This document shows positions 12,651-34,897 of a stretch of DNA of 36,791 bases, one piece after another. The stretch is from Bacteroidales bacterium. GTDB lineage: Bacteria; Bacteroidota; Bacteroidia; Bacteroidales; UBA932. The position numbers were made by a program, and so were the translations under genes. Position 1 is the first letter of the stretch, and each line of letters starts with the position of its first letter. The notes beneath the pieces were generated by a model, which saw only the letters and a program-made list of their open reading frames with translations, had not been told where the DNA came from and made no database searches. The stretch covers positions 1 through 36,791 of the forward strand of contig JAFYEM010000009.1 of assembly GCA_017544265.1 (NCBI GenBank), in the 5' to 3' direction.

Positions 12651-13735
12651 TCCTCCCCCTGCTGCTCCGCAGCGGCAGATTCCTTCTCTTGCTGCACTGC
12701 AGTGGCAGATTCCTCCGCTTGCTGCACTGCAGCGTCAGAGGCACCTGCCGAACCTTTATAGGGGGTCGATGGTTCGCCAGATGCCTCTGACGCTGCGCCG
12801 GAAGCGGCAGCTGGCATGGTTTCGGCGGCATAGACACCATTTAAAGCTGCCGGGGCCATGTCAGATGACGGCGGTGCGGTTGGAGCGGCGTTGACGTTCC
12901 GGGGGGCATCGACCCCCTGAACAGCCCCACGGGGCGTCAACGACGCGGCAGAAGCGGCAGAGGCGGCAGAGGCGGCCTGGGCCTCGGCGCGTGCGCGTTC
13001 GACGGACTTGGAGCGCTTCAGCACAAAGCCCGAACCAAGATACTTTGTACGCACATCCTCATCGGCAGACAGAGCCTCCGGAGTACCCTCCTGAAGGATG
13101 GTTCCCTCGTAAAGCAGGTAGGCCCTGTCAGTGATTGCAAGCGTTTCGCCGACATTGTGGTCGGTGATAATGACGCCGATATTGCGGTACTTGAGCTTTG
13201 CGATGATATACTGGATGTCTTCCACGGCAATAGGGTCAACTCCGGCGAAAGGCTCGTCCAGCAGAATGAATTTCGGGTCCACGGCAAGCGCACGGGCGAT
13301 TTCGCAGCGGCGTCTCTCACCACCGGAAAGCTGGATGCCTTTGCTCTTGCGGACCTTCGAAAGATTAAACTCATTAATCAGGTTCTCCAGCCTCTGCGAC
13401 CTCTCCTCCTTAGTCATGTCCGCCATTTCCATGACAGACATGATATTGTCCTCGACACTCATTTTACGGAAGACGGAAGCCTCCTGCGGGAGGTAGCCGA
13501 CTCCCTTCTGGGAGCGCTTGAACATCGGGAGGTCCGTGATTTCCTCGTCATCGAGGAAAATGCGGCCTTCATTGGGGACTATCTGGCCGGTTATCATATA
13601 GAAACTGGTCGTCTTGCCAGCGCCGTTAGGACCGAGGAAGCCGACGATCTCGCCCTGGCTCACCTCCATCGAAACGCCCTTCACGACAGTGCGGACGCCA
13701 TATTTCTTAACCAAATTCTCTGCTCTGAGTTTCAT
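12647..13735 (-). CDS. lptB: LPS export ABC transporter ATPase LptB with a repeat-derived C-terminal tail
   Basis: A 362-residue protein. Residues 1-245 are a complete LptB: Walker A GPNGAGKT (35-42), Q-loop Q84, signature LSGGE (136-140), Walker B FILLDEPF (157-164) and H193. It powers extraction of lipopolysaccharide from the inner membrane by the LptFGC complex. Usual length is about 240-255. The extra roughly 110 residues are Ala/Ser/Pro/Glu-rich and come from a 286-bp block of hairpin repeats (12661-12946) that is also inside dnaX, read in the same frame. An AS-AAS tandem run (12945-12975) joins core and tail. The tail is probably disordered. The gene starts 6 bp after dnaX. Confidence 0.95.
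12661..12946. repeat. Palindromic element block A, translated as the LptB tail
   Basis: A 286-bp block with no gaps against block B and about 12 differences by hand count. Three roughly 30-bp tandem units (12661-12735) come first. Hairpin A1 (12729-12796) has perfect 15-bp arms GCAGCGTCAGAGGCA/TGCCTCTGACGCTGC. A2 (12808-12867) has imperfect 12-bp arms. A3 (12885-12946) has 11 of 12 arm pairs plus two inner hairpins (GGGGG/CCCCC and GCCCC/GGGGC). Each apical loop holds ATCGACCCCCT or a close variant; A1 carries it on the opposite strand. Confidence 0.93.
12945..12975. repeat. 9-bp tandem repeat
   Basis: About three copies of GAGGCGGCA, coding for AAS repeats at the junction between the LptB core and the repeat-derived tail. 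Confidence 0.7.
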
Positions 13736-13741
13736 ATTCTT

Positions 13742-15640
13742 CTACTTGACATCCAGTCCGAGGTCCTGGACGAATTTATTCACGTCTGGATTTGTTTCAA
13801 TGAGCACTTTCGCCTTCTGCTCAGGCATATAGGGCTCCACGCTTTTCATTTCACTCTCCGGAGTGACGGAAACCACCACGTTCACCTTCGTACATCCGAG
13901 AGCTGAGCGAAGTCTCGTTTCGAGTTCTCTGAGGAGTTTTTCCTCCACCCACTGCTTCTGCGATGTGTTGGTAACTTCGAAGTCTAGGATTTTCACTCCG
14001 CCTTCTTCGGAAACCGTGATTTTTCCGGAGGAAATCATATTTGCAAGGCGCGGTTTCGAGGCATAGGCAGCCGAGAGTTCTTTCCACTTCTGCTGCATAA
14101 GTTCGTCAGAAGGCAGCATCTCCTGTGCATTTTCCTGCTCGGTTTCGTCTTCTGCAGGAGTTTCGTCCATCAGTGCATTCATGGAAAGCGCGGACCCGGT
14201 CTTCGCCGCCCTGCGCCTTGCAGGTGCAGCTTTCGCCGGCTGCTCCGCAGCGGCAGATTCCTTCTCTTGCTGCACTGCAGCGTCAGATTCCTTCGCTTTC
14301 TGCACTGCAGCGTCAGAGGCACCTGCCGAACCTTTATAGGGGGTCGATGGTTCGTCAGATGCCTCTGACGCTGCGGCGGAAGCGGCAGCTGGCATGGTTT
14401 CGGCGGCATCGACACCCTTTGAAGCCGCCGGGACCATGTCAGATGACGGCGGTGCGGTTGGAGCGTCGTTGACGTTCCGGGGGGCATCGACCCCCTGAAC
14501 AGCCCCACGGGGCGTCAACGACGCAGCAGGGGCGGCGGGAATGGCATTGACGATGAAACAGAGTTTCATAAGGGCGAACTCTATATGAAGCCTCGGATTC
14601 ACCGCAGACTTATAGCCGGATTCACAGGAAGTCGTAATCTCCAGAGCGTCGTAAAGGAATTTCAGCGGACAGCGCGCAGCCTGCTCCGAATAACTTTGCC
14701 TGAGCGCATCCGGCATATCCAGCAGAGCCGCTATCGAAGCCGTCTTTGACACTACCAGGTTACGGATATGCGACGAAAGCGACGACACGAAATAAAGAGC
14801 GTTGAAGCCCTTGGAAAGCACCTCGTCGAAGGTCATCAGCGCAGCCTGGTAATCCCCGGAAAGGAAATTGTCAGTGAGGGAGAAACTATATTTGTAGTCC
14901 AGCACATTCAAGTTCCGGATGACATCGTCATACTGGATATCAGTGCCGCAGAAGGCAACAGTCTGGTCGAAAATCGTGAGTGCGTCACGCATCGCCCCGT
15001 CTGCCTTCTCAGCAATGACATGAAGCGAACGCTCATCCACCGTAATCCCCTCCTTAGATGCAATATCACTCAGATTACGGACCATGTCCCGAACCGAAAT
15101 ACGGTTGAAATCGTAAGTCTGGCAGCGGGAGAGAATAGTCGGGAGAATCTTGTGCTTCTCCGTTGTCGCAAGTATGAAAATCGCATGTGCAGGAGGTTCC
15201 TCAAGTGTTTTCAGGAAAGCATTGAAGGCCGCCTGCGAGAGCATGTGCACCTCGTCGATAATATAGACACTGTAACGCCCGACCTGCGGAGGCACCTGGA
15301 CCTTCTCCATCAGCGTCTTGATATCCTCAACACTGTTGTTGGACGCCGCGTCCATCTCGTGGATGCAGTACGAGCGCCCCTCCCTGAAGGAAATGCAGGA
15401 TTCACACTCTCCGCACGGCTCCATGTCAGGTCCCGGATTGGAACAGTTTATCATCTTCGCGAAAATTCGCGCAGTAGTGGTCTTTCCGACGCCCCTGGGG
15501 CCGCAGAAAAGATAGGCATGGGCGAGCTGGCCGCGACGGATGGAATTGGACAGCGTGCGGGCGATGTTGTCCTGCCCGATAAGGGTGCCGAACGACTCCG
15601 GGCGGTACTTTCTGGCCGAAACCATATATTGTTCTGACAT
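13742..15640 (-). CDS. dnaX: DNA polymerase III subunit gamma/tau with a repeat-derived insert
   Basis: A 632-residue clamp-loader ATPase. Residues 1-365 hold the AAA+ module and collar: Walker A GPRGVGKT (47-54), zinc-binding C66, C76, C79 and C82, the DEVH box (129-132) and sensor 1 (ATTEKHKILPTILSRC). A low-complexity segment at about 369-470 follows, nearly identical to the LptB tail and encoded by the 14239-14524 repeat block. After an RRR-rich stretch comes a C-terminal domain (about 500-632) like the tau-specific region. The insert lies in the flexible linker between collar and C-terminal domain, where it should be tolerated. The gene starts 4 bp after the response regulator. Confidence 0.95.
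   Translation of the reverse strand: MSEQYMVSARKYRPESFGTLIGQDNIARTLSNSIRRGQLAHAYLFCGPRGVGKTTTARIFAKMINCSNPGPDMEPCGECESCISFREGRSYCIHEMDAASNNSVEDIKTLMEKVQVPPQVGRYSVYIIDEVHMLSQAAFNAFLKTLEEPPAHAIFILATTEKHKILPTILSRCQTYDFNRISVRDMVRNLSDIASKEGITVDERSLHVIAEKADGAMRDALTIFDQTVAFCGTDIQYDDVIRNLNVLDYKYSFSLTDNFLSGDYQAALMTFDEVLSKGFNALYFVSSLSSHIRNLVVSKTASIAALLDMPDALRQSYSEQAARCPLKFLYDALEITTSCESGYKSAVNPRLHIEFALMKLCFIVNAIPAAPAASLTPRGAVQGVDAPRNVNDAPTAPPSSDMVPAASKGVDAAETMPAAASAAASEASDEPSTPYKGSAGASDAAVQKAKESDAAVQQEKESAAAEQPAKAAPARRRAAKTGSALSMNALMDETPAEDETEQENAQEMLPSDELMQQKWKELSAAYASKPRLANMISSGKITVSEEGGVKILDFEVTNTSQKQWVEEKLLRELETRLRSALGCTKVNVVVSVTPESEMKSVEPYMPEQKAKVLIETNPDVNKFVQDLGLDVK
14239..14524. repeat. Palindromic element block B, translated inside DnaX
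   Basis: The same 286-bp arrangement as block A in the same orientation and reading frame, 1.58 kb away. Hairpin B1 is 14307-14374 (perfect 15-bp arms), B2 14386-14445 (inner CGGCGGC/GCCGCCG is perfect here) and B3 14463-14524 (12 of 12 pairs, GCGTCGTTGACG/CGTCAACGACGC). Loop cores are at 14338-14348, 14408-14418 and 14486-14496. Its stems are more regular than those of block A. Confidence 0.93.
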
Positions 15641-25912: not shown

Positions 25913-26500
25913 ATGGTACTTCAGTATAGAGTTTCGCTTCCCGGCATCAAGGGTTTCAACAGGGTTTATCATATTGATTCCAAGGCCACCTTGTATGATT
26001 TTCACAAGCAGATGCGCTCCGATATGGAATTCCCGCAGGACCAGTTGATAATGTTCAAGGCCCTCGGCGAAGACGATCAGGTAATAGCCCGCTACGGACT
26101 TTTCAGCCTCGGCTACGGTGCCGTGGACGAGATCTCCATGGAAAAAACCATCGCCGACGGCATCACTCATTTCATATATTTCTATGACGTCACCTTCCGG
26201 AAGAGCGTAGTGGTCACTTTCGAAGGCAAGGTCGATGACGCCGCGCCTGTGTCCTATCCCACCATAGTGGAGGAGAAAGGCCCGAATCCCGTTGAATTCG
26301 AGAACGGTTATGTGGCCTATGAGGACCTTCCGGAGGACCAGAAGCACATCCATCCCGGAGCCCGCGCAGCCCTGGCGGCGATTCTCGCCGGTGGCTCGGA
26401 CGACGAGGATGAGGATTTCGATGAAGACGATGAAGACCTCGAGGAGGAGGACGATTCGGACGAAGACGGCAAGGAAATTTACGACGGCTCTGAATTCTGA
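25913..26500 (+). CDS. Plasmid pRiA4b ORF-3-like protein with an acidic tail
   Basis: A 195-residue cytoplasmic protein. The first 110 residues (VLQYRVSLPGIKGFNRVYHID, then TLYDFHKQM and HFIYFYDVTFRKSVVVTFEG) match the pRiA4b ORF-3-like fold, also annotated as an IS1096 TnpR-like domain. The last 35 or so residues are an extreme acidic tail (runs such as DEDEDFDEDDEDLEEED), which may contact a basic partner such as RNA-bound protein. I chose the ATG at 25913 since the family begins here and a promoter lies just upstream; a TTG at 25844 would include the promoter. The stop overlaps miaA as TGATG. No transposase is nearby, so the mobile-element name should not be read as function. Confidence 0.8.
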   Translation: MVLQYRVSLPGIKGFNRVYHIDSKATLYDFHKQMRSDMEFPQDQLIMFKALGEDDQVIARYGLFSLGYGAVDEISMEKTIADGITHFIYFYDVTFRKSVVVTFEGKVDDAAPVSYPTIVEEKGPNPVEFENGYVAYEDLPEDQKHIHPGARAALAAILAGGSDDEDEDFDEDDEDLEEEDDSDEDGKEIYDGSEF

Positions 26501-27360
26501 TGCGGCGGCGGATCCTACTCATCGTCGGCCCCACTGCGGTGGGAAAAACGGCCTACAGCATTGAAAAGGCCCTTGAGTACGGCTCCCCGATAATTTCCTG
26601 CGATTCCCGCCAGATATACAAGGAAATGCCCATAGGCACTGCTGCTCCTTCCATAAGGGACAGGCAGATGGTGCGGCATTATTTCGTACGCGACCGTTCC
26701 ATAACCCAGACATGCACTGCGGGAGACTATGAACTTGAGGCGATAGATCTGGTGGAAAAACTTTTCGACCGCGGCCATGAAACGCTTGTCATGACCGGTG
26801 GCTCGATGCTATGGGCAGATGCCTTCTGCTACGGCCTGGACGAATTTCCTGACATTCCTTCCGAAATCCGCACCCACCTCATGAAGTGCCTGGAGTCCGA
26901 GGGACTGCCGGTGCTTGCGGACGAACTGCGGAGATGCGATCCCCAATCCTATAATACTATAGACATAAATAATCCACAAAGGGTGATTCGCGCCCTCGAG
27001 GTCACTGTTTTCACAGGCAGACCCTTCTCCTCTTTCAAGACTGCTCCCAAGCGCCAGAGGAGCTTCGAGATTGAAAAAATAGGCCTTCGCCGCGACCGGG
27101 ACGAACTCTACAGAAGAATAGATGAAAGGGTGGACCTGATGTTCAAGCGCGGCTTGATCGAGGAAGCCCGCCGGCTCTATGACTACCGCAGTCTGCCCGC
27201 CCTGCAGACCGTCGGATACCGCGAACTCTTCGAATATTTCAGCGGTCAGTGTTCCCTGGACGCAGCCATAGGCCACATCAAGCGCGCCACCCACAACTAC
27301 GCCAAGCGCCAGATGACCTGGTGGAAACGCGACAGTTCCATTCAGTGGATTGACCTTTAG
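26500..27360 (+). CDS. miaA: tRNA dimethylallyltransferase
   Basis: A 286-residue enzyme that transfers a dimethylallyl group to A37 of tRNAs reading UNN codons. The P-loop GPTAVGKT is at 10-17, with SCDSRQIYKEMPIGTAAP and TGGSMLWADAF for substrate binding. The family's C-terminal segment LQTVGYRELFEYF and HNYAKRQMTWWKR is intact. At 286 residues it is slightly shorter than the E. coli enzyme but similar to Bacteroidetes homologues. It shares a TGATG overlap with the pRiA4b-like gene. A region of hairpin repeats begins about 20 bp after its stop. Confidence 0.95.
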   Translation: MRRRILLIVGPTAVGKTAYSIEKALEYGSPIISCDSRQIYKEMPIGTAAPSIRDRQMVRHYFVRDRSITQTCTAGDYELEAIDLVEKLFDRGHETLVMTGGSMLWADAFCYGLDEFPDIPSEIRTHLMKCLESEGLPVLADELRRCDPQSYNTIDINNPQRVIRALEVTVFTGRPFSSFKTAPKRQRSFEIEKIGLRRDRDELYRRIDERVDLMFKRGLIEEARRLYDYRSLPALQTVGYRELFEYFSGQCSLDAAIGHIKRATHNYAKRQMTWWKRDSSIQWIDL

Positions 27361-27378: not shown

Positions 27379-27545
27379 ACTGACGGCGGTGCGGAGTACG
27401 TCGGCAGCGGCGGTGACGTTCCGGGGGGGGCATCGACACCCTGAACGCCCCACGGGGCGTCACCGACGCGGAAGACGACGGCAGCTGGCAGGGTTCCGGC
27501 GGCATCGACCCCCTATTAAGCCGCCGGGGCCCTGTCAGCTGGCGG
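27379..27545. repeat. Palindromic element, third copy, intergenic
   Basis: Lies between miaA and the convergent TolC-family gene. It starts with CTGACGGCGGTGCGG, matching the junction between hairpins 2 and 3 of blocks A and B. Hairpin C3 (27407-27469) follows, with CGGTGACG/CGTCACCG in place of CGTTGACG/CGTCAACG. C2 (27482-27541) has CAGCTGGCAGGG/CCCTGTCAGCTG and a perfect inner CCGGCGGC/GCCGCCGG stem. Loop cores are at 27432-27442 and 27504-27514. The order of the hairpins is reversed relative to A and B. There is no open frame like those in lptB and dnaX. Confidence 0.9.
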
Positions 27546-33019: not shown

Positions 33020-34897
33020 CTATTCGATGGTAACCTTGTAAATACGTTTGTTGCTCTTATCTGATACATAAATATGTGAATAAGAGCTATCAAATGCCAA
33101 ACCATCAACTCGAGGTAACACACCACTTGCCGTAAGCGTTACAATAGTACCGTCTTCAAATCCAGTTGTTCCTCGAACCAACTTTCTGAGGCAATATTGA
33201 TCAGCAATATAGAGGTTGCCTGCACTATCAAATTCCATATCTTGAATATCAGGAGCAAAAGATGCATTTGCGGATACTCCATCTGCTATTGCATCATAAT
33301 TTCCAGATTTTGTTCCGCTTCCAAACATAGCAACAGGGGCAGCACCCTTGGAAGTCACTTTGTATAGCTTGAAACACTCACTCGGTGATCCAGATGAAGC
33401 AGATACAGCAACCACCATCGAACCGTCAGTATCGAACGCAAATGAAAGAGGCCAAGCATATCCAGAAGAAGCAATCCCACTAAAATCAGCATATACTTCA
33501 GAAGGAACCTCACCAGGCAAACCATTCGGAAAAACATAAATCTTTCCAGCAGCGCTACCATCTCCACGACATAGCAAATAGATGCTTCCGTTGTGTTCCT
33601 TTATCTGCATTGGATTATTATATCCCGTACATCCCGTCACTATTGAATAAATCTTTGTAGATAAATCATATTTATAGATGGCGTTTCCAGTAGTTGCGAC
33701 CTTATTTGCAATGTAAAGATTATCTCCTGAATAGCAAACACCATAAGGAGATGCAGGATACTTGGATGCGCTATTCGTTGCGCTTTGGGTTGCCGTCTTA
33801 TTATTAACATCCAGGAAATAAACGTGATACTGCTCACCAGTAACGATAAATTCATCGTCAGTTCTCCTAATAATATCGTGAGGAGTCCTGGCAATAGATG
33901 AAATTAATGTTTCAACTGTGTACTTAGTCAACGTAATCGGCCGCATTTTCTTGATGGTGGCGCGCTCGATTTTCACGTTTTTGGCTACGCGCTCGCTACC
34001 GGGGACGGTTGTGCCGTCTGCGAAGGTAAGGCGGATGTCTATCTCTGGATAGGTATGGGCATCCCCCGGGCCTACGGGAAGAGGTATATAAACTGTAACG
34101 CCATCGTCAGAAGCTCTCTGAGCGGCAGTGGCAGCCGCAATATTCTGGGTAATCTCTTTCTTTCCTGTCACCGCATATGCCTGAAGATACGGTGTTTCTC
34201 CCGTGAATCCACCTGCGGCTGTTTCCCAGTTAACCAAAGATTTCTGAACGTCGCAAATCTTATAGTATTGTCCTGCTTCGCTGGCGGGAGCTGAAATGAC
34301 GAGTTTTGCTGCCTTTGGCGGAAGATACTTATAAGTAACCTTCAAAACTCCGCCAAGGTGCTTAAACTGAAGTGCGGTACCGTCGTCGGTTACTTTTGCA
34401 AGCATCGGAGCTTCAACATTACCATCAAACCAGGTATATCCATCTTTCAATACCAGCTTCAAAGAGCCTTCATCCTCACGCGGAAAAGCTGTTGCACCAG
34501 AGCCGGACGTCTTTGCGGGATAATAGGCGAAAGAATTATTTCCAGTCACGATTTTATCCTCTGAATCAGCATCACGAATAGCGAATTCAGCTTCTCCGGC
34601 CGTATCTTCACCTGAGTAAGTAAAAGTCGTGAATCCATTGGCATTGTTAGAGCGGACTACGATATTATTGCCCTCCTTCCACATAAAGGTTCCGCCGACG
34701 AATGCGGTTTTACTATCGACATCCACGGCGCCTTCGGCAGGAGCCGCGACTAGTGTTTGGATGTTACTGCCGGATAATGGTTCTTCAGTAGCCTCTGACG
34801 CTTCAGGGGCGTCGGTTTCAGGTGCGATTTCCTTGCTGCAGGAAAGAATAGCGGACAGAGTAATAGCTGTCACAAAAAAGAATCTGTTAGTTTTCAT
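33020..34897 (-). CDS. Fimbrillin-like lipoprotein with a C-terminal NHL-type propeller
   Basis: A 625-residue surface lipoprotein. The signal peptide ends at AILSC with C20 lipidated. An N-terminal region (about 40-325) has fimbrillin/Mfa-like segments: FMWKEGNNIVV, FAYYPAKT and LQFKHLGGVLKVTYKYLP. The C-terminal part (about 340-625) is an NHL/SMP-30-like beta-propeller with repeats such as PYGVCYSGDNLYIAN and DMEFDSAGNLYIADQYCLRKL. The start is the ATG at 34897, behind a good GGAGG ribosome site; a TTG five codons upstream is less likely. The propeller part is visibly more A/T-rich than the rest. It follows a 52-residue small gene by 15 bp. Function is unknown; a binding role at the surface is likely. 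Confidence 0.82.
   Translation of the reverse strand: MKTNRFFFVTAITLSAILSCSKEIAPETDAPEASEATEEPLSGSNIQTLVAAPAEGAVDVDSKTAFVGGTFMWKEGNNIVVRSNNANGFTTFTYSGEDTAGEAEFAIRDADSEDKIVTGNNSFAYYPAKTSGSGATAFPREDEGSLKLVLKDGYTWFDGNVEAPMLAKVTDDGTALQFKHLGGVLKVTYKYLPPKAAKLVISAPASEAGQYYKICDVQKSLVNWETAAGGFTGETPYLQAYAVTGKKEITQNIAAATAAQRASDDGVTVYIPLPVGPGDAHTYPEIDIRLTFADGTTVPGSERVAKNVKIERATIKKMRPITLTKYTVETLISSIARTPHDIIRRTDDEFIVTGEQYHVYFLDVNNKTATQSATNSASKYPASPYGVCYSGDNLYIANKVATTGNAIYKYDLSTKIYSIVTGCTGYNNPMQIKEHNGSIYLLCRGDGSAAGKIYVFPNGLPGEVPSEVYADFSGIASSGYAWPLSFAFDTDGSMVVAVSASSGSPSECFKLYKVTSKGAAPVAMFGSGTKSGNYDAIADGVSANASFAPDIQDMEFDSAGNLYIADQYCLRKLVRGTTGFEDGTIVTLTASGVLPRVDGLAFDSSYSHIYVSDKSNKRIYKVTIE

Follow-up and report, generated by a model that had tools for sequence, protein, structure and literature searches.

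We describe a family of small DNA hairpins in a Bacteroidales bacterium that is probably restricted to its genus and non-autonomous, with copies that have spread within the genome. Each unit measures about 63-66 bp and consists of a conserved 16-nt loop on a stem of about 25 bp, the sequence of which is hypervariable and covaries between the two arms. Units occur singly or in tandem groups, and many of them lie in frame within genes. The starting point is one stretch of 36,791 nucleotides (the window), which holds eight copies.

Six of these copies belong to a duplicated block in lptB and dnaX (Table 1). The sequence-only reading of this DNA had described the two blocks as 286 bp each, gap-free and about 96% identical, which agrees with the ungapped alignment (12 mismatches, 95.8% identity); in the output of a repeat finder the two appear as a 300-nt repeat with 95% identity (12658-12957 and 14236-14535). 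As that reading also held, both blocks are read in one phase, each within a single open reading frame. Profile searches assign these frames to LptB (NCBIfam TIGR04406, 355.7 bits) and DnaX (NCBIfam TIGR02397, 430.1 bits). Among 80 loci of relatives we found eight complete LptB proteins (identity of 45% or more, match beginning at the start, with a stop codon) of 248-267 aa, and the 362 aa observed here therefore include some 95-100 extra residues, confirming the proposed C-terminal tail of about 100. The DnaX block is positioned in the linker, which had been supposed to be permissive and is indeed variable across 10 aligned relatives. Each block is made up of short tandem repeats (seen by eye) followed by three tandem hairpins, A on the minus strand and B and C on the plus strand, with different stems and a common loop (ATCGACCCCCTATTAA and variants). 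The earlier description as a palindromic element thus stands as far as palindromic DNA is concerned, but it has to be revised from one palindrome to three hairpins. A further pair, of types C and B, is intergenic. An Rfam scan of the window at the gathering score returned tRNA only and no match to the hairpins.

Table 1. Hairpins, blocks and host genes in the window (positions refer to the window; bit scores are from covariance model R1 unless a profile is named).
Feature	Position	Strand	Evidence
lptB ORF, 362 aa, with extra C-terminal tail of ~100 aa	12647..13735	-	TIGR04406; LptB lengths in relatives
Block 1: short tandem repeats (by eye) and hairpins A, B, C	12661..12946	.	12 mismatches to block 2 over 286 bp
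Hairpin A, block 1, sense to lptB; loop ATCGACCCCCTATAAA, encodes ..STPYK..	12730..12795	-	72.6 bits
Hairpin B, block 1, antisense to lptB	12805..12870	+	61.8 bits
Hairpin C, block 1, antisense to lptB	12883..12948	+	68.4 bits
dnaX ORF, 632 aa, block 2 in linker	13742..15640	-	TIGR02397; alignment of relatives
Block 2: short tandem repeats (by eye) and hairpins A, B, C	14239..14524	.	Repeat finder; alignment to block 1
Hairpin A, block 2, sense to dnaX	14308..14373	-	71.9 bits
Hairpin B, block 2, antisense to dnaX	14383..14448	+	70.0 bits
Hairpin C, block 2, antisense to dnaX	14461..14526	+	68.1 bits
C-type hairpin, intergenic, convergent genes either side	27405..27471	+	56.6 bits
B-type hairpin, intergenic, loop ATCGACCCCCTATTAA	27479..27544	+	79.8 bits; phase-2 stops in both readings

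The loop core GGCATCGACCCCCT occurs 98 times in the genome with at most two mismatches, against 14 occurrences of the reversed pattern, so the recurrence of the hairpins is not a matter of chance. At least 15 of the 22 inner pairs are formed by 16 of 18 exact core matches and by 30 of 39 matches with at most one mismatch, which indicates that pairing is more than a by-product of the way the copies were selected. In alignment A1 (25 units, ungapped) 91.7% of the cells are paired (58.0% in shuffles) and 24 of 25 pairs have changed on both sides, and in alignment A3 (37 units from seven genomes) 90.9% are paired (57.5% in shuffles); these counts are inflated, given that A1 holds 25 of 27 reference units and its members were selected for at least 17 of 22 inner pairs, and that the copies behind models R1 and R2 (see below) had either been picked for pairing or come from a search with a model of that kind. 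When the partners in A1 are slid, the paired cells drop to 34-45%. It also speaks against the covariation that 2 of 500 shuffles had as many double-changed pairs as A3. No variation is seen at loop positions A, T, G and C across the 37 units of A3; in other species, where the loops read ATCGGCCCTCTTTTTA and similar, the motif is absent in 3 of 56 copies. Of 63 units listed, 54 form at least 15 inner pairs, and inspection of these 54 by eye (30 nt either side of the loop) revealed no conserved tetranucleotide outside the stem that could serve as an end tag. Among 14 close C-type copies in the own genome we counted 9 double changes where 4.7 are expected for independent arms (a twofold excess), together with a larger number of single-side mismatches (19 cells), which suggests that correction between arms is partial and not constant.

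With covariance model R1, 64 sites were obtained in the own genome of 1.87 Mb (67 rows minus three opposite-strand repeats), including near-identical stems and copies at unrelated loci. Two outcomes envisaged by the sequence-only reading, relatives that carry the same tail and a block with no other genomic copies, are therefore not what we observe: the eight complete LptB proteins of relatives end without it, and the sites are many. Across 101 genomes (own and relatives, strict filters) R1 matched the own genome and one other, and across nine genomes preselected by a loop-pattern search it matched six, with 13 rows in one of them (G172). Of the 95 R1 rows 73 were used, after removal of 21 opposite-strand repeats and one weak hit (L300:3017-3065); the 74 rows from other species were reduced to 56 by removal of 18 opposite-strand repeats. 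In a survey of 400 genomes of the genus, model R2, a broader covariance model built from the units of A3, had matches in 37, the own genome among them; the own genome aside, it matched none of 394 genomes elsewhere in the phylum. As 13 candidates were scored per genome under strict filters, copy numbers from the R2 surveys are lower bounds and genomes with weak copies may be missed. As negative controls, R2 was run on 176 kb from 50 other loci of the genus (19 RAYT loci of relatives among them) and on 681 kb from 80 DnaX loci of relatives; neither set gave a match. Further families were sought with a de novo scan for hairpins, which recovered 4 of the 8 window copies and is too insensitive to be decisive; its yield was 1 hairpin for the miaA loci (101 kb), 6 for the RAYT loci (71 kb) and 23 for the DnaX loci (681 kb).

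Genes were called with a simple caller of our own, and the phase was assigned by locating the loop near the centre of the unit (3 of 45 genic copies from other species have no assignable loop). In the own genome 36 of the 64 copies fall in called open reading frames and 28 do not; 33 of the 36 are in phase 2 (14 sense, 19 antisense) and the other three, all antisense, in phase 1, which at the gene level amounts to 16 of 18 genes in phase 2. If we set aside two copies at locus L305, which probably lie upstream of the true rpiB start, 34 copies in 17 frames are left, 32 of them in phase 2. The probability of at least 16 of 17 genes in one phase is 2.7e-7 under equal and independent phases, although lptB and dnaX, with their common block, are not independent. 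The 56 copies from other species show the same tendency: 11 are intergenic, and phase 2 is found in 40 of 42 assigned copies and 35 of 37 genes (some of them mutually orthologous). The five off-phase copies are at L305, L280 (twice), L268 and L277. Spacing follows the reading frame as well. For neighbours less than 200 bp apart it is a multiple of three in 14 of 15 pairs within own genes (the exception being L305) and in 1 of 6 pairs between genes; within genes of other species this holds for 3 of 3 pairs.

Among 73 copies (nine of which come from G172 and G334), phase-2 stops are absent from all 18 genic copies in sense orientation and occur in 1 of the 25 antisense ones; of the 30 copies not wholly within a called gene, 25 have them when read sense and 20 when read antisense. 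Avoidance of stops was considered as the sole cause of the preferred phase and rejected: re-read in phase 1 the genic copies remain open in 23 of 36 cases (own) and 28 of 42 (others), the corresponding counts for phase 0 are 12 of 36 and 17 of 42, and the make-up of the peptide differs more. The residues Ala, Ser, Pro, Gly, Thr, Glu, Gln, Lys and Asp account for 76-81% in phase 2 against 48-52% otherwise, and the share of Arg is 2-5% against 16-19%. One site in an RsmF-like protein is occupied off-phase in the own genome (G000, L280) and in G172 (L268) and in-phase in G268 (L386). Other phases are thus possible, which favours a filter acting after insertion over targeting that is aware of the phase.

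The host genes are diverse. By profile match they encode LptB, DnaX, CysS, AtpG, AtpB, phosphomannose isomerase, MiaA, UvrA and RsmE (the last matched as RNA methyltransferase domain); further hosts we take, from their sequences, to be RsmF-like, M20 peptidase, YfhO-like, MMPL-like, biotin carrier, glycosyltransferase, outer-membrane and DUF1573-like proteins. UvrA aligns end to end with a solved UvrA (1007 bits, with a few other gaps), and the longest stretch of the query without a counterpart (24 positions) spans the hairpin element. Likewise, the elements in AtpG, MiaA and RsmE are found in stretches that the best solved chain leaves unmatched or gapped. Judging from the open frames, genic copies should be read as extra protein.

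One gain of a copy is seen in miaA. Here the site is a length-variable loop after the Walker A helix, with one hairpin in G172 and two in the own genome. In the other 30 genomes that were compared, this place either lacks an insert or holds one of another kind, up to about 40 residues long (L341), and R2 matches in none of them. Alignment of G172 with G028 shows an insertion of one ~63-bp hairpin against an empty site, and no target-site duplication is evident at this single empty site. Together with the 64 sites, the 36 copies in open reading frames and the near-identical copies, this bears out the earlier proposal that a palindrome spreads at the DNA level, in frame, within genes. In cysS an insertion is shared by three other species (G109, G375 and G405), at the same place as in the own cysS (G000; gene match and own site by eye). 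Between G375 and G405 three stem pairs have changed on both sides and one wobble has become a standard pair, whereas no standard pair is broken; two of the three double-changed pairs are next to each other, which a single template switch could explain.

Given these observations, we consider it likely that we are dealing with a non-autonomous, genus-restricted hairpin family that spreads in the genome, is tolerated in frame and has arms that change together. Near-identical stems at unrelated loci and one clean empty site show that copies have spread within the genome. A transposing enzyme would have to be postulated: no mobilising enzyme was found, and with no evident target-site duplication at the one empty site transposition is something we infer. 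Genic insertions would survive if the frame is kept and if, with few exceptions, the phase yields a peptide of small residues that is poor in Arg, a pattern that suggests selection; intergenic copies are seen to carry stops. After insertion both arms keep changing together, as the covariation indicates, most likely through arm-to-arm correction of imperfect palindromes by template switching or conversion, or else through selection on the hairpin. Given its conservation, the loop may be recognised by a loop-binding protein or a nuclease. It might even be argued, though only tentatively and with the odds against it, that an undescribed, genus-specific, loop-recognising DNA machinery both mobilises the hairpins and preserves the complementarity of their arms, with the result that essential proteins would steadily gain segments of about 22 residues in a nearly fixed phase. 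If such machinery is real, the host sites common to several species would be a record of repeated, tolerated insertions.

The most serious competing explanation is that the hairpins are kept for a function of the site (mRNA stability, transcript ends, or binding of gyrase or a nucleoid protein via the loop), with in-frame copies as a side effect. The invariant loop positions, the covariation of stems even at one orthologous site and the many intergenic copies near gene ends would all fit. A strand-specific role in RNA, however, is hard to reconcile with the occurrence of both orientations in genes; moreover, there is no relation among the host genes, strict filters leave 363 of the 400 genomes surveyed in the genus without a match, and the miaA element is absent from all 30 compared relatives, for which reasons we regard this explanation as rather doubtful. 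Two other readings of the duplicated block are highly improbable. The translated segments of lptB and dnaX are alike, as expected for a protein-level repeat or domain shuffled between the two proteins, but copies occur in both orientations with different peptides, intergenic copies have stops in that phase, and the pairing is conserved in the DNA; the intergenic and antisense copies already refute this reading. That the block is an assembly artefact might be suspected for a fragmented assembly of 65 contigs, yet the two blocks differ at 12 positions and in their flanks, and the family recurs in 36 other genomes, leaving hardly any room for an artefact.

Alternatively, the genome's own RAYT-like tyrosine transposase could be moving the hairpins, which would then be REP elements. 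One such gene is indeed present (REP_Tyr_transpos, 30.1 bits, below the cut-off of 80), and the layout is REP-like in its tandem groups and in the 21 intergenic places, of which 6 are convergent, 11 same-direction and 2 divergent (2 have one neighbour unseen). This RAYT gene, however, is flanked by a different hairpin (GGTTGG...CCAACC, by eye) and lies ~4.2 kb from the nearest family copy; the RAYT loci of relatives show GGTCC...GGACC pairs in 5 of 19 cases (by eye) and no family member in any of the 19. The stems of ~25 bp lack a visible conserved end tag (by eye), and RAYT-like genes are present in 165 of 200 genomes of the genus against 37 of 400 for the hairpin elements. The RAYT link suggested by the sequence-only reading is thus not borne out, and we consider this explanation unlikely. 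Another candidate mover, an Rpn-type nuclease (TIGR01784, PF12784), was retained as a lead only: one such gene has a C-B pair on either side (L299), and there is a split one close to a copy (L290), but a C-terminal signature of the nuclease was counted only twice in 240 kb of own loci, and not at all in 188 kb of element loci from other species or 172 kb of control loci. As to carriage, two 20-nt loop patterns had no match in viral contigs and the block had none in plasmids.

Several known systems resemble the preferred hairpin family in part. REPIN/RAYT systems consist of genome-specific palindromes that are often paired, and MITEs are defined by shared terminal inverted repeats and a target-site duplication. 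The family has the genome specificity and frequent pairing of REPINs, but the own RAYT has its different flanking hairpin and RAYT presence does not track the family. Like MITEs it is short, non-autonomous, multi-copy and able to give in-frame fusions (PMC10969869); the variable stem, on the other hand, seems to leave no terminal inverted repeat common to the family, and no target duplication is evident at the single empty site compared. PMC3733652 describes intragenic GTAG/CGTC-tagged REPs in Opitutus terrae, R. conorii, Xanthomonas and others as small stem-loops, dimers and groups in uvrA, recB, dnaE and tRNA synthetase genes, with intergenic copies chiefly between convergent or same-direction genes, and mentions CGTC REPs in Bacteroidetes with no detail given. 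The hairpins resemble these in forming groups within genes, uvrA and a tRNA synthetase gene (here cysS) included. The same paper reports stems of 5-13 bp (GTAG) or 8-9 bp (CGTC), a tag at one end and a chiefly intergenic location, unlike the 25 stem pairs, no tag seen and about half of the copies in called genes observed here.

The closest parallel is found in the Rickettsiales. According to PMC3767692 and PMC10969869, RPE and Wolbachia palindromic elements interrupt many unrelated genes in frame, at positions exposed to solvent and at matching sites in orthologues, including the same region of one gene in Wolbachia and Rickettsia. The sequence-only reading had named these two genera as the known cases; the likeness to RPE holds, but they are less exclusive than supposed, given that PMC3733652 reports palindromes in frame inside genes of other bacteria, among them Opitutus terrae and Xanthomonas. 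A literature search returned no description of such a hairpin family in Bacteroidales, which is weak evidence as most subscription papers fall outside its coverage. The family would add a Bacteroidales member to the translated palindromes of Rickettsiales and some REP-rich genomes, and it allows the phenomenon to be put in numbers, by way of phase, spacing, stops and the empty sites of sister species with sequenced genomes. New peptide segments may enter essential enzymes by this route, and the family provides a naturally occurring example of a hairpin within genes with co-evolving arms, the gain, loss and maintenance of which are directly testable with at least 400 sequenced genomes of the genus. 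Like RPE, the hairpins are in-frame palindromic insertions in unrelated genes (34 copies in 17 frames) and share an insertion site among orthologues (cysS). Unlike RPE, reported at ~100-150 bp, they form a 66-column unit and belong to another phylum, a separation that is based on description and not on sequence. Overall, the family works like Rickettsia palindromic elements with a different anatomy: in-frame palindromes themselves were already known, and this family is set apart by the unit size, the stem length, the constant loop, the hypervariable covarying stem and the lack of a visible end tag.

In an RsmF-like protein, what appears by eye to be one and the same site carries a hairpin in the genome under study (locus L280) and in two others, G172 (L268/L314) and G268 (L386). 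Since the orientations and phases of these hairpins differ among the three genomes, the comparison suggests a tolerated site that was hit by repeated insertion.

Within both blocks, short imperfect tandem repeats, recognized by eye, run into hairpin A and lengthen the encoded Ala/Gln/Glu-rich segment. A repeat search of the window additionally yielded a 33-nt stretch with 82% complementarity to one arm of hairpin A. This may be the degenerate remnant of half an element or a coincidental resemblance; the long ORF enclosing the stretch had no match in a Pfam profile search. The window also holds a gene that, as judged by eye, resembles miaA; it is a second one next to the hairpin-bearing miaA, which is on contig C16.

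Coordinates of the features (window positions or locus:positions)
Feature	Location	Contig
Tandem repeats, block 1 (lptB)	12661-12728	window
Tandem repeats, block 2 (dnaX)	14239-14306	window
Second miaA-like gene	26500-27360	window
Partial match to hairpin A	34774-34806	window
Hairpin-bearing miaA	L294:2238-3359	C16
Rpn-family putative transposase gene	L299:4672-5844	C31
Hairpin near split Rpn gene	L290:3002	
Single RAYT-like gene	L162:6500-7384	C4

C-B hairpin pairs lie on either side of the Rpn-family gene, and the split Rpn gene is about 290 bp away from its hairpin. The gene resembling a REP-associated tyrosine transposase (RAYT) is flanked by its own hairpins (GGTTGG...CCAACC); at RAYT loci of some relatives (for example L361, L365 and L367) paired GGTCC...GGACC hairpins are present, which at L365 start with GTAG.
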